Origin: Clostridiales bacterium
GTDB lineage: Bacteria > Bacillota > Clostridia > Christensenellales > Borkfalkiaceae
Assembly (NCBI GenBank): GCA_022781715.1
Contig: JALETB010000101.1
Span: 1-33,919 of the forward strand
Direction: 5' to 3'
DNA length: 33,919 bases
Shown here: one piece after another, positions 13,491 through 22,606 of the stretch
Position numbering within the stretch: the stretch's first letter is position 1
Layout: every line of letters begins with the position of its first letter
Program-made: the position numbers and the translations under genes
Notes under the pieces: generated by a model
The model's database searches: none
What the model saw: only the letters and a program-made list of their open reading frames with translations
What the model was told of the DNA's origin: nothing

Positions 13491-14351
13491 TTATCGCTTG
13501 ATAAGGTTCAGGTTCGTCTTGCGCCAGTTCAGGGGCGACATTCCGTATTCCTTTTTGAACGAGTTTATATAGTTGCTCTGATTGGAATAGCCGAGCGTCT
13601 GCGCGATATCCGAAACCGAAAGGTTCGTGTTGAGAAGAAGAGTGGTGGAGTAAGCCATTTTTTGACGGTTTATATATTGAATAAGCGTGCAGCCGAAATA
13701 TTCTCTGAATTTGCGGCATACGTGACCGTGGCTGTATCCCGTTCTATCGATGAGTTCGGGCAGAGAAGAAAAGGGCGAATCGAGAACGGAAGAGGTGGTT
13801 ACGTTGAGTTTGGAGAGCATATCCAGCAGCCAGTCCGGCGTTTGCCTTGCGGGGTAATAACGCGTTTCCGCGTAAGCCGCCAGGGCTTCCATGATGAGGC
13901 AGTTGTGAAGAACGTTCACTTCTTCCTGAGAGTTGCTATCGCGAACGGCGGTGATTTTCGCGGCGGTGGCTTCGATGGAATCGATATGCGTTTTGTCTAT
14001 CACGCATGTTACGGGAACGTCGCTGTTTATCAATTCGTCGTATAATCCCTCGTGAATAATATCCGCAACCTGCCGCATTTTTTCATCCGAAACATAGATG
14101 TCGCGGTAGACGGCGGGCGTGCCTTTCAGGTTTACGTAATGAATATCGGAAGGGCGGATGATGGTGAGAGAACAGGCTTTTAAACCGATGTCTCCGCTGT
14201 CGAAATGATTGACGTATTCGCCCTTTATCGAAACGGTGAGTTCCCAGAAAATGTGGCAGTGCCGCTCGATATCGTGGTTAAAAATTAACTCTGTATAAAG
14301 CCCGTTAATGAGATTAAAATTATAAATAGGATAATTTGGATTTTTTGACAT
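13491..14351 (-). CDS. AraC-family transcriptional regulator with N-terminal cupin-like sensing domain
   Basis: C-terminal two-HTH domain: 'LIDRTGYSHGHVCRKFREYFGCTLIQYINRQKMAYSTTLLLNTNLSVSDIAQTLGYSNQSNYINSFKKEYGMSPLNWRKTN'. Start at MSKNPNYP. Confidence 0.93.
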   Translation of the reverse strand: MSKNPNYPIYNFNLINGLYTELIFNHDIERHCHIFWELTVSIKGEYVNHFDSGDIGLKACSLTIIRPSDIHYVNLKGTPAVYRDIYVSDEKMRQVADIIHEGLYDELINSDVPVTCVIDKTHIDSIEATAAKITAVRDSNSQEEVNVLHNCLIMEALAAYAETRYYPARQTPDWLLDMLSKLNVTTSSVLDSPFSSLPELIDRTGYSHGHVCRKFREYFGCTLIQYINRQKMAYSTTLLLNTNLSVSDIAQTLGYSNQSNYINSFKKEYGMSPLNWRKTNLNLIKR

Positions 14352-14666
14352 TATTCTCTCCCTGCATTCCCTTATAATTGTTATTATAATACAAAAATCA
14401 GCATATATCAAGAGAAAACGCAAAAAATATATATTAAAATTTAACATTATTACGTAGCGAAAAAGTCAAAAAAAGACAATTTTGAACACAAAATTTTATC
14501 GGAATGCGGCGCGATTTAAATCCGCGCGGCGAAAAAATGTTAATTATTCACACATTATTGCAAAAAAAAGGAAAGACAATGCGCGCATAAGCGGTTACAA
14601 TAAAGTTATAAGATGCGGGTGAATAAGAAAATCGACCGCAAAAAAATTTGAAACGGCATTATAATG

Positions 14667-14704
14667 CCCCGCGGACCGGTCGCTGATGCGAGCGGTCCGC
14701 GGGG
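14667..14704 (+). repeat. GC-rich leader hairpin immediately upstream of the carbohydrate operon
   Basis: ccccgcggaccggtcgc-tgat-gcgagcggtccgcgggg, 16 of 17 pairs, no U tract, about 14 nt before the start codon. Confidence 0.75.
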
Positions 14705-14718
14705 TGCGGGAGAATATC

Positions 14719-16662
14719 ATGAGGCTCACGGGAAAAAGAATGAAAAACATAGCGATTGTATTCGCAGTCTTTCTCGCTTTGTGTTTTTCGGTTTTTGCCG
14801 GGCTGTCTTTCACGGAAGCGAAAGCGGACGGAGGAACGACCGGATCGGAATCTTATGCGGTTGCAAAAATGGATAAGTCGGGCAGAATCGATCTCGATAT
14901 GGTTATCGATAAAGACAGGTTACCCGCATATCTTGCAGACAACGAGAATTTTAACGCTTACGTTAACGCAAGCGTTAAAATTCTCGTCAACAATTCGGCG
15001 GATAACGACACCCTGACGGTGAAATACATAAAAGAAGAGGGAAATTCTTATCGCGTGGGAATTAAGTCGAGAAGGCTCAGCGCAAGGCTTACGAGCGCGT
15101 GGAACTGGTTCGCCTGGGATAAATTTTCGTCTTACGCGAGCAGCACGAGCGCGAACTTCCCGGAGATAGAGGATATCGCGGACGGATATCTCGTCAAATC
15201 GCTGATGAAGGTGAAAGGCTCGCTCCCGATAGGGCAATATAAATTATTGCAGAACAACAACGTAAGCATTCTTCCCACCGACGTTGCGACGGGTAAAACG
15301 ATTACGACGAAAGAATTCGCGACGATTGCCGAGAATTCTTCTTCAAAAGAGTATATGGGCATGTTCCGCCTTGCGGGCTTAGGTTTTCTGGACAAAATAA
15401 CGCTCGAACTGCCCGGCAAAGTCACTTACGTTTCTTCCGAGGGAGTTAAGGTCGTCGGCGATAACAAAATCGAAATAACTTCGTTCAGAACGCAGGCGAA
15501 CGTCGTCGGTTACGATTACGTCACGGACGAAAACGGACGGATAACTTACGGCGATGACGGGAAACCCGTTAAAATCGAAGATATCGGCAGAAAAGAAATC
15601 GACTATATGCTCGGCTACTTCGTTTACGAGGAAAGCCCGAACTATCTGCTCATCGGCTGCCTTGCGGGCGCGGGGGCGATTCTTATAGGACTTCTGATTT
15701 TCTCCATAGTCACGGGCAGAGCGAAAAGGTTCTTCCGCGGAGAAAAGTTCGCCAAAATCAAACGGCATAAAATGATTTATTTAATGCTCATCCCGAGCGC
15801 GATTCTCGTGATAACGTTCTGCTACGTGCCTATGTTCGGCGTGCTGATCGCCTTTAAGGACTTCACGCTGACGGACGGGTTCATCGGGAGCGAATGGGTG
15901 GGGCTTAAATACTTTAAACATATAGTACTCGGCGCGGACGAAAACGTTTTCCTCGTTTTCAGAAACACCATTTATATCGCGCTCATAAGAGTTGCCACAA
16001 ACTTCCCCGCGATTCTCATTTTCGCGCTTATGATCAACGAAGTTTCGTCGGGCAAAGCAAAATCGGTCATAAGGACGATATCGTACCTGCCGAACTTCAT
16101 TTCCTGGATCGCCGTAGGCGGTATGGCTCTTTCGATATTCTCGATGAACGGCGGACTTTTAAACAAAGTAATATCCGCGATAAAAGGCGAGGCGTTCGTT
16201 AAGGACTGGTATTCCGAAAATACAACGATCTGGTGGATATTCCTCGCGCTCTCGTCGATGTGGAAATCGCTCGGCTGGGGAACTATCATTTATATGTCCG
16301 CCCTCGGGTGCATAAATTCCGAACTTTATGACGCGTGCAGCATAGACGGCGGCGGCAGATTCCGGAAAATCATCACGGTCACGATTCCCGGAATAGCCAA
16401 CGTGATAATGTTGCAACTCATCATGGACGCGGGCAACCTTATCCGCGATAACTACGAACAGGTGCTTGCGCTGACTAACGGAAGCCAGTATCTGAACGAT
16501 TCAACTTACATAGTCGGCTCGATGGCTTATTCCGCCGTAATGGGCGGCTCGGGCTACGCGATGGCAACGGCGTTCGGACTGATTCAGGGCGCGATAGGGC
16601 TTGTGCTTGTTATCCTGACAAACGGAATAGCCAAGAAAACGGATAACGAAGGGGTGCTTTGA
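14719..16662 (+). CDS. LplB/CUT1-type ABC transporter permease with an N-terminal signal-peptide-bearing extracytoplasmic domain
   Basis: Signal peptide (IAIVFAVFLALCFSVFAGLSFTEAKA), about 290-residue ectodomain, TM (YLLIGCLAGAGAILIGLLIFSIV), then permease 'HKMIYLMLIPSAILVITFCYVPMFGVLIAFKDF' and EAA-like 'SELYDACSIDGGGRFRKIITVTIPGI'. Confidence 0.88.
   Translation: MRLTGKRMKNIAIVFAVFLALCFSVFAGLSFTEAKADGGTTGSESYAVAKMDKSGRIDLDMVIDKDRLPAYLADNENFNAYVNASVKILVNNSADNDTLTVKYIKEEGNSYRVGIKSRRLSARLTSAWNWFAWDKFSSYASSTSANFPEIEDIADGYLVKSLMKVKGSLPIGQYKLLQNNNVSILPTDVATGKTITTKEFATIAENSSSKEYMGMFRLAGLGFLDKITLELPGKVTYVSSEGVKVVGDNKIEITSFRTQANVVGYDYVTDENGRITYGDDGKPVKIEDIGRKEIDYMLGYFVYEESPNYLLIGCLAGAGAILIGLLIFSIVTGRAKRFFRGEKFAKIKRHKMIYLMLIPSAILVITFCYVPMFGVLIAFKDFTLTDGFIGSEWVGLKYFKHIVLGADENVFLVFRNTIYIALIRVATNFPAILIFALMINEVSSGKAKSVIRTISYLPNFISWIAVGGMALSIFSMNGGLLNKVISAIKGEAFVKDWYSENTTIWWIFLALSSMWKSLGWGTIIYMSALGCINSELYDACSIDGGGRFRKIITVTIPGIANVIMLQLIMDAGNLIRDNYEQVLALTNGSQYLNDSTYIVGSMAYSAVMGGSGYAMATAFGLIQGAIGLVLVILTNGIAKKTDNEGVL
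14942..14987. repeat. Perfect 18-bp inverted repeat inside the permease-fusion coding sequence
   Basis: acgagaattttaacgctt-acgttaacgc-aagcgttaaaattctcgt. Confidence 0.9.
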
Positions 16663-16666
16663 TACT

Positions 16667-17455
16667 ATGAAAAGAGATTTTGCGCTCGACCGCCCCTTAG
16701 GGCAGAAACCTTACGGCGGCGGAAGTTGCGCGATTTTCAGAAAAGTTGCCTGCATCGGCGATTCGCTCGCTTCGGGCGAACTGGAAATCGTGAGAGAAGA
16801 AGAAAGACATTATCTCGACCTTTACGATTATTCCTGGGGACAATTCCTCGGGAGAATGACAGGTGCGAAAGTTTATAATTTCTCGCGCGGAGGAATGTCC
16901 GCTTCGGAATACATGGGCGGCTGGGCTGAAGAGAACGGCTGCTTCGACGAAGAGAAGAAATGTCAGGCTTACATAATCGCGCTCGGCGTCAACGACCTGC
17001 TCAATATGGGGCAGGAAGTAGGCGGCGTTGCGGATATCGGCGGCGATAAAAAAACTTTCGCGAGGTATTATTCCGAAATCGTGCTGAGATACAAAAAAAT
17101 CGAGCCGAACGCAAAATTTTTCTTCGTTAGCATGCCGCGGCAGGAAATCGACGATGCGGGCAGAACGGAGAAAAAAGAACAACTCGTAAGGTTTCTCTAT
17201 GAACTGAGCGAAACGCTCCCGAATTGTTACGTTCTCGATTTTTATAAACACGCGCCCGTATACGATGCGGAATTCGTAAGAAAATATTATTACAACGGGC
17301 ATATGAATGCATCCGGTTACAGGCTGACCGCGGAATATATCGTTTCGGGCATTCATTCGATCGTGGAGGCGTTCCCCGAGGAATTCGAAGACGTTCCGCT
17401 TATAGGAACGGAGCATCATTATCTTGTGGAAAATTGCGAAGGAGGGAAAAGATGA
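16667..17455 (+). CDS. SGNH/GDSL hydrolase (possible carbohydrate deacetylase)
   Basis: Block I 'IGDSLASGE', block III 'GVND', C-terminal 'NGHMNASGY'. Confidence 0.85.
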   Translation: MKRDFALDRPLGQKPYGGGSCAIFRKVACIGDSLASGELEIVREEERHYLDLYDYSWGQFLGRMTGAKVYNFSRGGMSASEYMGGWAEENGCFDEEKKCQAYIIALGVNDLLNMGQEVGGVADIGGDKKTFARYYSEIVLRYKKIEPNAKFFFVSMPRQEIDDAGRTEKKEQLVRFLYELSETLPNCYVLDFYKHAPVYDAEFVRKYYYNGHMNASGYRLTAEYIVSGIHSIVEAFPEEFEDVPLIGTEHHYLVENCEGGKR

Positions 17456-18333
17456 AGAAATACAAGAGCGACAGAGCGTTCGATATCGTCAACGGACTGA
17501 TCATCGCGCTTTTATGCGTAACTTTCATTCTGCCTTTCTGGATGATGATCATCAGTTCGTTCACCGAGGAGATATCTCTCAGAGTGAACGGATATAAACT
17601 TTTCCCGTCGGCGTTTTCCGCGGCGGGTTACGAGTATATTTTCTCGTCGCCCGATTACAACATTTTAAGGGCGATAATCAACTCGGTGATAATTTCCGTT
17701 TCGGGAACGGTTCTTTCCGTTGCGGTTTCGCTCATCACCGCTTACGCGCTCAGCAAAAAGTACGTGGTCGGCATCAAGGGAATCAACGTGTTTTATATAA
17801 TCACGATGTTCTTCGCCGGCGGAACCATTCCGCTTTACCTCGTTATCAGGGGCATCGGGCTTTACGACACGATCTGGGCGCTTATCATTCCGAGCATGTT
17901 CAGCCTTTATCATATCATTCTGGTGAGAAGTTATTTTTATTCGCTTCCCGCCGCGCTCGAAGAAGCGGCGATGATCGACGGCGCGAACGATTTTAAAATT
18001 CTCGTGAGCGTGTTCCTGCCGATATCCGTGCCGATGGTGCTTACGATAGCGTTTTTCATGTTCGTGGACAGATGGAACAGTTGGATGGACGCGCTTTTAT
18101 ACCTCGGGCAGAGCGAAAAGAGCAAATCTTTGCGCCCGTTGCAGTTCGTGCTTAAACAAATTCTCGAAAACTCCGAAAATTCCGGCGGGTTGGACGGTTC
18201 TGCCGCCATCACCCCCGTTCTTTCCGCAAAATCGGCGGCGGTTGTCATAGCGATCGCGCCGTTGCTCGCGATATTCCCGATTATCCAGAGATATTTCGTG
18301 AACGGAATCACGATAGGGGCGGTTAAAGGATGA
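17452..18333 (+). CDS. ABC transporter permease, YtcP/AraQ (MalG-like) type
   Basis: 'PFWMMIISSFTEE', 'SYFYSLPAALEEAAMIDGANDFKILVSVFLPISVPMVLTIAFFMFVDRWNSW'; ATGA overlap with the upstream gene. Confidence 0.92.
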   Translation: MKKYKSDRAFDIVNGLIIALLCVTFILPFWMMIISSFTEEISLRVNGYKLFPSAFSAAGYEYIFSSPDYNILRAIINSVIISVSGTVLSVAVSLITAYALSKKYVVGIKGINVFYIITMFFAGGTIPLYLVIRGIGLYDTIWALIIPSMFSLYHIILVRSYFYSLPAALEEAAMIDGANDFKILVSVFLPISVPMVLTIAFFMFVDRWNSWMDALLYLGQSEKSKSLRPLQFVLKQILENSENSGGLDGSAAITPVLSAKSAAVVIAIAPLLAIFPIIQRYFVNGITIGAVKG

Positions 18334-18515: not shown

Positions 18516-20210
18516 ATGAAAGCACTCAAAAAAATCCTTTGCGCCGTCACGGCAATGATCATGGCGATCAGTTTCGCGTCATGCGGGAAAACAGGCTCTT
18601 CCACGGGCGGGGACAATTCTCAGTCGGTGGAGAGCAACTCCGGTTCGGGAACGAAATACGATCCCGCAACCCGCCCCGCAGGGAAGAAAATAGTCATTTA
18701 TTGCGGCGGTTCTTCCGAATACAGCGTGGTTAAAGGCTCCGAAGAAGCCGTTGTTAAAAAAGCGGTTGAAGACGCTTATTACGCCGACACCGGCATCTCG
18801 CTCAATTTCGAGGTTCAGTATCTCGGAACGAACATGCAGAGCGTTCTCGCGAACAGCCTTGTGGCGAACGATCAGGTAGACATCGTCATATCTCACACCA
18901 GATTTGATTCCGGTATCGACGATTATGCGATCGGTCAGGGCATCTACTATGACCTTGCGAGGACCATCAGCCGTTACGGAAACAACATTACCGATAAGAC
19001 CGATCTCAACACGATGACCACGTTCAACGAAGAGGTAATCGGTATTCCTTCTTACGTCAACCCTTATAAGCACGGAATTCTCGTGAGAAAAGACTATATG
19101 AGAGCCGTGGGTTACACCGACGACGCCGCCGAAGCGCAGGAAAAAGGACTTACCCTTTTGACCACAATCGAGCAGTTCGAGGATATGTGCAAAAAGATGA
19201 AATCCAAAACCGTTACGAAGCAGGACGAAGATTCGGCTTATTCCGTGAGCGGCGCGATCTGGGATATCGAAAAGGTGTTCACGGGCGCGTTCTCAAACGC
19301 GGGTTATTTCTTCTACGGCGAAACGACGAACGAAAAGGGCGAAACGATAATCGCTCCCGGTTTTGCTCAGGAGGGATTCAAAGACCTTCTTCAGATGGAA
19401 TACAGATGGGTTAACGACGCGAAGATTCTCCCGAGCGACGCGAACACACAGTCTCTCGAGGCATCGGAAGGTCAGTTCGTTGCCGGTCTTACGGGCGTGT
19501 TCATGACCGACCCCACCGTCACTCATCTCATCAAAGTGGCAAGAAAAACCAAAGCGCAGAACCCCGAAGCGGAATTCACCGTTTTAGGACCTCTCGCGCA
19601 GGCAAAATCTCCCGAAAAAAAAGGGTTTATGCGTCTTTCCACCGGTTATAAGGCTGCGGTCGTCATGAAAGACTCTCAGAATGCGGAAGATATCGTGAAG
19701 TATGTGAACTGGATGTATTCCGACGTCAGGAATTACAACCTCTGCATGTACGGCGTTGAAGGTTCGCACTGGGTGAACAACGGCGACGGAACGTATTCTT
19801 ACCCCGAGGGCAAAGAATCGTATCTCACGAGAGCGCCTTATTCGGGAATCTTAGCGCTCGTTGAAAACCAGAATATGTCTGACCTTGTTTACAGCGGATA
19901 TACCGAACAGGAAAGAGGCTGGCTCACCGCGGCGAGAAACAAAGATCTTTACGTTAAAAACGATATCATCGATTACATTCTCCCGAGAAACGAAGGTATG
20001 TCGCAAAAGCATTCCACCGCGCTCAACACTTACTGGAACGGCGTTGCCGCTTCCGCGTGGTCGGGCAACTCGGATCCGTCCAGGAAGAGTACGGATAATC
20101 CGAATATCACCAACGCGGAATTTTTCAGATGGAATTACCTTCAAGACGACGCGGAATATCTTGAATTTGTGACGAGCCAATACAAACTAATGAAGCAGAT
20201 GAGAGGTTAA
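18516..20210 (+). CDS. ABC transporter extracellular solute-binding lipoprotein (LplA-like)
   Basis: Lipoprotein signal 'AMIMAISFASCGKTGSS', then a solute-binding fold pattern 'KKIVIYCGGSSEYS', 'YYDLARTISRYGNNI', 'GIPSYVNPYKHGILVRKDYMRAVG'. Confidence 0.92.
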   Translation: MKALKKILCAVTAMIMAISFASCGKTGSSTGGDNSQSVESNSGSGTKYDPATRPAGKKIVIYCGGSSEYSVVKGSEEAVVKKAVEDAYYADTGISLNFEVQYLGTNMQSVLANSLVANDQVDIVISHTRFDSGIDDYAIGQGIYYDLARTISRYGNNITDKTDLNTMTTFNEEVIGIPSYVNPYKHGILVRKDYMRAVGYTDDAAEAQEKGLTLLTTIEQFEDMCKKMKSKTVTKQDEDSAYSVSGAIWDIEKVFTGAFSNAGYFFYGETTNEKGETIIAPGFAQEGFKDLLQMEYRWVNDAKILPSDANTQSLEASEGQFVAGLTGVFMTDPTVTHLIKVARKTKAQNPEAEFTVLGPLAQAKSPEKKGFMRLSTGYKAAVVMKDSQNAEDIVKYVNWMYSDVRNYNLCMYGVEGSHWVNNGDGTYSYPEGKESYLTRAPYSGILALVENQNMSDLVYSGYTEQERGWLTAARNKDLYVKNDIIDYILPRNEGMSQKHSTALNTYWNGVAASAWSGNSDPSRKSTDNPNITNAEFFRWNYLQDDAEYLEFVTSQYKLMKQMRG

Positions 20211-20235: not shown

Positions 20236-20688
20236 ATGTGGATTACGGTAATTGCGATCCTGATATATCTCGAAATCCTGCAAACCGGCTTGTTTTTTAT
20301 GTTGAAAGGGTCGGCGGAAACCCCGGGATTATCGATCTTTATCCCCGTTTACGGGCTGAAACACATCACCCGGACGGGCAAAATAAAAATACTGAGCGTT
20401 CCCGTGGAAAAGCCGTTCGGCTTTTTCACGGAACTCCTCGTCATCGCGCTTCTTTGCGCTCTTTACTGGAAGTGGGGCGTGGATAATCTTTCGCTCAAAG
20501 CCTACACCTGGCTCGGGCAGATCATGGTTCTTCCCATCGCCATCTGCCTCGGATTGTGTTATCTTGCCGTGGTGAAGTCGGCGATAAACGTCTGCGGAAG
20601 TTTTTCCGGCGGGAAAAAAGCCGTGTGTATCGCCCTGTCCTTCCTTATTCTTCCCGTGCCGTTCATTTATATGGCTAAATCTAAATAA
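20236..20688 (+). CDS. Small multi-pass membrane protein, unknown function
   Basis: 150 aa with about four hydrophobic segments and 'PGLSIFIPVYGLKHI' resembling DUF5684-type proteins. Confidence 0.6.
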   Translation: MWITVIAILIYLEILQTGLFFMLKGSAETPGLSIFIPVYGLKHITRTGKIKILSVPVEKPFGFFTELLVIALLCALYWKWGVDNLSLKAYTWLGQIMVLPIAICLGLCYLAVVKSAINVCGSFSGGKKAVCIALSFLILPVPFIYMAKSK

Positions 20689-20701: not shown

Positions 20702-22606
20702 ATGATGAAAAAGTTATTATATTGGTTAATGGCGGTCGTGCTGGCGGCGTCCTCGTTGGCGTGCTTAGCCTCCTGCGGCGGCGGAACTTCAACGTCTGAC
20801 AAAGAACCGAACCCGGGAACGTCCGAAAGCGTTTCGGAAGAACCGGGCAGCGATTCTTCAACTTCGTCGGGAGACGACAACGTGACTTATGTCGACGTTC
20901 CGTCCGCTCCCGTTTACGAAACGATCGATTACGGCGACTACACGACTTATTATTTCGACAGCGTATCCGGCAGCGACGAAAACGACGGAACGAGCGAAAT
21001 TACGCCTAAAAAGACTCTCGGCGAGGCGGAAAAAATCGTCCGCGGCGCAGCGGCGGGTTTGAGAATCCTTTTCAAAGGCGGCTCTGTGTTCGAAGGGCGT
21101 TTAACGCTTGAAAACTTCGCTTCGACTAAGGAAAAACCGCTTTACGTCGGCAGTTACGATGCCGGGCGCGCGATCATAAGCGCGGACGCGGGCGCGGCTG
21201 TCAACCTTCTCGGCGACAATGCGAGAATTTTCGACCTTGAAATTAAAAACTCAAAAGGTTCGCAGGGCATACGCGTCGAAGCGGCGAAGAACGGCGTTTC
21301 CGAAAACATCGTCGTGGAGAACTGTTACGTACACGAAGTGGGCTGGAACTGGGAATACGATTTCGACGTTAAAGCCTTTGCAAACGGCGAGGGCAACACG
21401 AAGAACGAGGTGGACGTGAAAAAGGTCTGCCCCGATAAAAGTTACCATTATGCGACGTGCGGAATTTATTTCGTTGCGCCCAAAGGCGACAGTCAGAATT
21501 ACAGAATGTTCAGAAACGTCTGGGTTATGAACAACAAAATCACCGAAACGGGCAGAGCGGGCATTATATTCGACAGCAGTTGGCAGTCGGGTAACGGCTG
21601 CGCCTGGGGCGGCGTGAATAAATACAGAAATATGGACGACGGCTGGTATCCGCCCGAATTTGTCGTGATAAGCGGCAACGACATTTCTTATGTCGGCGGC
21701 GACGGAATAGTCCCCATCGGCGTTCAGGATTGCTGGATAGAGCATAACACCGTTATTCATTCGGCTATTTTAGGCAGAGCGGGCAACGCCTGCGCGGCTA
21801 TCTGGCCGGTCAACGCGAGAAGAGTTTACATTCAGTATAACGAAGCGGGATATACTCATCTCGATAACGGCTGCACGGACGGCGAGGGCTTCGATATAGA
21901 TATCGGCTGCTCGGAAATTTATTTCCAATATAACTACTCGCACGATAACGCCGGCGGCGGCTTGCTTCTTTGCAACATTCATTCGCAGATGCCTTTATAC
22001 GACGAAAACGGTCACCCCGTGATTAACGAAGAAACGGGCAAACAGGAAACCTTCGACGACAGAGGTTACTGGGATAAAGTTTACATCCGCAACAACGTTT
22101 TCGCCAACAACGGAGCAAGCGGTTCGAACGCCGCGTTCCTCGTTGTTTCGAGCGATTGTCATAACGCCGTTTGCGAAAATAACATAGTCGTGATGAAAAA
22201 GGGTATGTTCTCTCAGAATCTCATCACCACGGCGGACTGGGGAAAAAGCGGCAAACAACAGGGCTTCGTTTTCAGAAACAACATTTTTTACAGCATAGGC
22301 GAACAATATTCGACAATCGATATGTCTTATTCCGAGAATTACGTTTTCGAAAATAACCTTTACTGGAATTTCCCCGATTCCTTCTTCGACGAATGGAACG
22401 GAATCACGGACGCCTCCGCGATTCTCGACATAGACCCGGGCATCACGCTCCCCAAAGACAGAAACGGTTTTTCGGTCGCTTCTTCGTTTAGGCCGACCAA
22501 TGCGGAAGTGTTTTCAAAGGGCAAAAAACTCCTTTCGCTCAACCGTCTCGATTTTGCGGGCGCGTCTGCCGAAGGGAAGAGATATCTCGGCGCGTTCTGC
22601 GCCTGA
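20702..22606 (+). CDS. Right-handed parallel beta-helix lipoprotein (paralog 1)
   Basis: Lipobox 'LACLASCGGG'; 'YYFDSVSGSDENDGTSEITPKKTLGEAEKI' and 'DGEGFDIDIGCSEIYFQYNYSHDNAGGGLLLCN'. Confidence 0.85.
   Translation: MMKKLLYWLMAVVLAASSLACLASCGGGTSTSDKEPNPGTSESVSEEPGSDSSTSSGDDNVTYVDVPSAPVYETIDYGDYTTYYFDSVSGSDENDGTSEITPKKTLGEAEKIVRGAAAGLRILFKGGSVFEGRLTLENFASTKEKPLYVGSYDAGRAIISADAGAAVNLLGDNARIFDLEIKNSKGSQGIRVEAAKNGVSENIVVENCYVHEVGWNWEYDFDVKAFANGEGNTKNEVDVKKVCPDKSYHYATCGIYFVAPKGDSQNYRMFRNVWVMNNKITETGRAGIIFDSSWQSGNGCAWGGVNKYRNMDDGWYPPEFVVISGNDISYVGGDGIVPIGVQDCWIEHNTVIHSAILGRAGNACAAIWPVNARRVYIQYNEAGYTHLDNGCTDGEGFDIDIGCSEIYFQYNYSHDNAGGGLLLCNIHSQMPLYDENGHPVINEETGKQETFDDRGYWDKVYIRNNVFANNGASGSNAAFLVVSSDCHNAVCENNIVVMKKGMFSQNLITTADWGKSGKQQGFVFRNNIFYSIGEQYSTIDMSYSENYVFENNLYWNFPDSFFDEWNGITDASAILDIDPGITLPKDRNGFSVASSFRPTNAEVFSKGKKLLSLNRLDFAGASAEGKRYLGAFCA

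Follow-up and report, generated by a model that had tools for sequence, protein, structure and literature searches.

An extracytoplasmic domain fused to, or encoded beside, an LplB-type CUT1 permease in Borkfalkiaceae

The locus and its fused gene

The window, by which we mean the whole stretch of 33,919 nucleotides that was analysed, contains what is, judging by its genes, a carbohydrate importer operon with an AraC-type regulator. Its features are as follows.

13491..14447, minus strand: AraC-type regulator, divergent (HTH_18, 9.5e-20)
14719..14826, plus strand: signal peptide, aa 1-36, with a signal-peptidase-I-like site between AKA and DGG (hydropathy, alignment)
14827..15639, plus strand: extracytoplasmic domain, aa 37-307, of no named family; its C-terminal half has a motif distantly resembling LppM
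15640..15711, plus strand: transmembrane (TM) helix ending the domain, aa 308-331 (hydropathy)
15712..15759, plus strand: basic linker, predicted to be cytoplasmic (sequence)
15760..16662, plus strand: complete CUT1 MalF/LplB-type permease, including the stop codon (Pfam/NCBIfam matches)
16667..17455, plus strand: SGNH/GDSL hydrolase, flanked by the permease genes (Pfam Lipase_GDSL_2, 1.1e-12)
17452..18333, plus strand: second, MalG-type permease, likely start ATG 17452, overlapping the hydrolase gene
18516..20210, plus strand: solute-binding lipoprotein (SBP_bac_1, 4.4e-8), whose clade occurs, within our sample, solely with ectodomain permeases
20236..20688, plus strand: small membrane protein, also found between solute-binding protein (SBP) and beta-helix-type genes in relatives
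20702..22606, plus strand: secreted right-handed beta-helix lipoprotein (Beta_helix, 8.8e-5, just below the cut-off)

By its sequence the transporter itself is an ordinary CUT1 importer, its operon being recognised as such by the MalG-type partner (17452-18333) and the solute-binding lipoprotein (18516-20210). It resembles the LplB / YtcP-YteP type importers, e.g. those of Bacillus subtilis (PMC11466899, PMC5730181), in its permease pair, its large SBP lipoprotein and the AraC-type regulator nearby, and in showing no ATPase gene among those seen in the operon. The small membrane protein occupies the same place between SBP and beta-helix-type genes in the window (20236-20688) and at L027:8772-9254, L038:2033-2509 and L039:9339-9806.

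One uninterrupted reading frame (14686-16662) covers the signal peptide, the domain and the permease, and its likely product (14719-16662) has 647 aa. On sequence grounds ATG 14719 is the likely start, because GGGAG lies just 5' of it and ATG 14686 falls in the loop of a hairpin. This hairpin (14667-14704; 17-nt arms, 94% complementary) is situated just 5' of the likely ribosome-binding site of the fused gene and reaches -40.6 kcal/mol for 71 nt (z -4.45), with no T-run and no Rfam match. Hydropathy reveals a signal-like segment at aa 11-29 and one TM helix at about 308-331, followed by the permease helices. A sequence-only reading of this DNA, which likewise took 14719 as the start, had described an uninterrupted frame for a signal peptide, a soluble part, a TM helix and a complete LplB-type permease; reading frame, hydropathy and Pfam all confirm this, and the soluble ectodomain is present, but the size given for it, about 290 residues, was slightly high for a mature domain of about 271. 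The stretch 'DENGRITYGDDGKPVKIEDIG' that was singled out does lie in the domain, as an insertion common to the closer relatives only. A lipobox-like C occurs at the signal-peptide site in about half of 20 aligned relatives and is absent from the window copy. The linker is much longer in some relatives, and in some fusions it is of low complexity and cytoplasmic.

The permease part matches Pfam BPD_transp_1 with 29.9 bits against a cut-off of 26.4, and the UgpA, MalF and GlcT models match the permease part only, each below its cut-off. The MalF of the E. coli maltose importer also bears a large extracytoplasmic part on a MalF-like subunit, probably near the SBP, but this P2 region is internal (residues 91-271) and not behind a cleavable signal peptide, whereas the window domain is N-terminal. 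The earlier contrast with MalF holds, since the MalF model aligns to the permease core alone (aa 390-619 of the 658-aa frame counted from ATG 14686), and descent from MalF P2 was rejected because the domain is N-terminal and the MalF model stops short of it.

Ordinary members of the LplB / YtcP-YteP type differ from the window in having no N-terminal ectodomain (0 of 80). In this control set of 80 LplB-type permeases among the matches listed, one genome per species, N-terminal extensions ahead of the first helix reach 97 aa at most, in agreement with the statement that LplB permeases normally begin near it. No recognisable copy of the domain was detected near these 80 listed permeases. The window's own genome encodes a second CUT1 permease, of 691 aa, on contig C117 (L004:3172-5247), with a different N-terminal signal-peptide ectodomain that gives weak beta-propeller-like matches and was not found in 100 relatives.

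Fused and separate copies of the domain

When 398 genomes from the family of the window were searched with the domain profile, 24 copies of the domain were recovered in 23 of them: 16 fused to a permease (including one fusion interrupted by the contig end inside the permease), seven separate and one at a contig end. Each of the seven separate copies is a gene for a signal peptide, the domain and a TM helix, directly upstream of a permease gene, and the helix that ends the domain also terminates these separate proteins. None of the 24 family copies lies away from a permease. Six of the seven split pairs have overlapping genes, with 4 to about 23 nt in common, and in the seventh a short gap separates the two; the overlap is ATGA in L027, L028, L030 and L031, whereas in L026 and L029 it amounts to about 23 nt, provided that the permease starts at its first in-frame ATG. 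Because the split relatives make the same protein from the gene directly upstream, domain and permease are partners either way. SGNH-type hydrolase-like genes recur beside domain-linked permeases (window 16667-17455; L041:4850-5530; L166:776-1483; L040:461-1144).

The architecture is not a chance one, as homologous domains occupy the same position in many other genes, with 14-37% identity to the window copy. Two more fusions are present in one genome of another family in the same order, and one of these is the closest relative of the window gene that we found (54% identity over the whole protein, 74% over the permease). This suggests horizontal transfer. At E <= 1e-5, the 391 genomes sampled from the class gave no further matches except partial ones, in frames of 250-320 aa from one family. 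The three of these frames examined whole (L140, L141, L145) are standalone lipoproteins that share the order lipobox, domain and TM helix, but they are about 250-310 aa long and are separate, unfused genes; in L140 and L145 the lipoprotein gene adjoins an sfsA-like gene. The domain was not found in viral contigs, where the matches are to permease cores only.

In the permease tree the domain-linked permeases cluster, and fused and split ones interleave in one neighbourhood, with shuffles never giving a value as low. Well-supported branches of this tree require the fused label to have changed at least four times. All 14 of the other permeases with at least 47% identity to that of the window are domain-linked. 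The sole permease labelled as having no domain inside the domain-linked part of the tree, L227, is probably cut by a contig edge and not a true loss, because its contig stops where the permease begins, and a copy of the domain is truncated by the end of L042, a second contig from that genome. Relatives that encode the two parts as separate genes, raised earlier as a sign that the fusion might derive from sequencing, do exist, yet fusion recurs among relatives as a genuine biological state. An assembly artefact was rejected given the many independent fusions in independent assemblies.

Affinities of the domain

Neither Pfam nor NCBIfam has a model that picks up the domain, whether in the window copy or in its relatives, and these searches gave no sign that the ectodomain is a named common domain of CUT1 permeases. 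Weak matches to CIF (E 0.15), DUF4959 and Prophage_tail were set aside as inconsistent, each arising from one member only, and a PDB profile search with the domain gave a best E of only 0.24. Single-sequence AlphaFold produced a poor model (pLDDT 45.6), and because of this value its Foldseek matches are meaningless.

Profile comparison of mature domains, with signal peptide and TM helix removed, gives a more distant lead. Against 27 LppM-family sequences the domain profile scores 38.6, compared with 18.0 for the best of 300 column shuffles and 14.2 for the reversed profile, and an LppM sequence used in this comparison retrieves the LppM structure 2nc8, a pseudo-beta-barrel, with an E of 5.5e-4. 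Against the standalone Clostridia lipoproteins (L140, L141, L145) the score is 49.1 over 143 columns (best shuffle 20.0). LppM (PF21946, PDB 2nc8) has the same order of parts as the domain copies, namely signal peptide or lipobox, extracytoplasmic domain and C-terminal TM helix, and has in common with them a PG...nTv motif, far above shuffled controls. The window domain is longer than LppM, and the similarity is confined to that one motif of 29 columns, which makes "LppM-like" a lead and not an assignment. Nor do we claim membership, because the PF21946 model has no match in the window genome, nor any in the domain scans. On balance, these profile scores make a distant relationship to LppM probable. 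To our knowledge, LppM is not part of any permease. An SBP-like domain was rejected, as there is no SBP family match and the profile scores 13.4, at background, against the SBPs of the domain operons themselves.

What the domain may do

We consider it very probable that the domain is an accessory extracytoplasmic subunit of the CUT1 carbohydrate importer. The best-supported part of this reading is that the signal peptide exports the domain of about 270 aa and the TM helix anchors it with the C-terminus inside, from where the basic linker enters a normal permease; export, anchor and linker together place the domain beside the mouth of the translocation path. That the domain is a physical partner of the transporter is argued mainly by the Rosetta-stone pattern of fused and split genes. 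In the SBP tree, 12 sequences from domain operons group as a single clade (100/99 support), distinct from 10 control SBPs, and this separation, which may reflect shared ancestry alone, supports the partnership along with the gene pattern.

The sequence-only reading had put forward docking of the binding lipoprotein, substrate capture or gating of transport as functions that the ectodomain could have.

The leading reading, which we hold tentatively, is that docking of the SBP is the main job of the domain. It leads because the domain-operon SBPs form a clade of their own and because MalF P2 contacts MalE (PMC3150292). The domain, which may descend from an LppM-type membrane-anchored lipoprotein, would help to keep or place the binding protein (18516-20210), or the cargo it carries, above the permease, in a manner analogous to that of the P2 loop for MalE but with a different structure. 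The speed at which the domain diverges speaks against a docking face for the SBP that is tight and conserved, where such change would be unexpected: the domain is less conserved than the permease in 190 of 190 pairs (median identity 23% vs 48%) and less conserved than the SBP in all 66 pairs that have one (23% vs 35%).

Rapid divergence is what one would expect if the domain itself captured differing ligands outside the cell, such as a glycan or glycolipid, and fed them to the SBP or the permease. Such an extra site would be comparable to GlnPQ, where GlnP has N-terminal extracytoplasmic domains fused to its TM domain (PMC8025302), and LppM binds a mannosylated lipid (PMC6151718), which we count in favour of capture. 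The enzymes of the domain operons vary as well (GH35, KDPG aldolase, beta-helix proteins, arabinose/fucose-isomerase-like proteins). The fused domains of GlnPQ and OpuA, however, have the SBP fold and serve as the binding protein, whereas the window operon has a separate SBP and a domain that does not resemble one. With no SBP or reliable lectin family match, a background score against the operons' SBPs and no recognisable ligand residues in the domain, we regard capture as unlikely.

Fast divergence would also suit a spacer or anchor that gives the permease, its lipoproteins or secreted enzymes their place within the envelope and makes few sequence-specific contacts, as would the lipobox in about half of the domain copies and the long low-complexity cytoplasmic linkers of some fusions. 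Even very distant copies, however, keep the overall length, the helix position and several columns (G55, S93, R119, G129, G156, G233, G299, Y300), more than a bare spacer needs, and this explanation appears rather unlikely. It is improbable that the domain acts as a sensor that uses the transporter to signal substrate or the state of the envelope to a regulator such as the neighbouring AraC-type protein: AraC-type genes do adjoin many domain operons, but such genes are common beside sugar operons, and the fused protein has no signalling domain. A meaningless or assembly-made fusion of neighbouring genes is hardly credible, because, even though seven relatives encode the parts apart in mostly overlapping genes, one step from fusion, the 16 fusions of one family and the two of another come from independent assemblies and from several parts of the tree.

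Taken as a whole, an accessory subunit, probably of LppM descent, whose most likely job is to help position the SBP or its cargo is the best explanation, and a reasonably probable one. A stronger version is possible, if somewhat doubtful: a family of LppM-derived anchored accessory subunits that joined one permease/SBP clade, was repeatedly fused and split, and directly hands substrate or SBP to the permease.

Implications

What appears new here is the outside domain, its fused and split behaviour and its restriction to a lineage, none of which we found described in the literature searched. That search, with partial coverage of journals, yielded no description of LplB permeases with an ectodomain, nor any under the terms DUF3153 or LppM domain. 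Type I sugar importers are taken to consist of two permeases, two ATPases and a binding protein, and the LppM-type domain is known mainly from a mycobacterial lipoprotein. If our interpretation is correct, these importers would have a new component in the form of a conserved extra subunit outside the cell, which occurs in nature fused as well as separate, and the LppM-type domain may have a transport-related role. The fused and split operons would then also offer a ready-made system for testing how binding protein and permease meet in cells of Gram-positive type.
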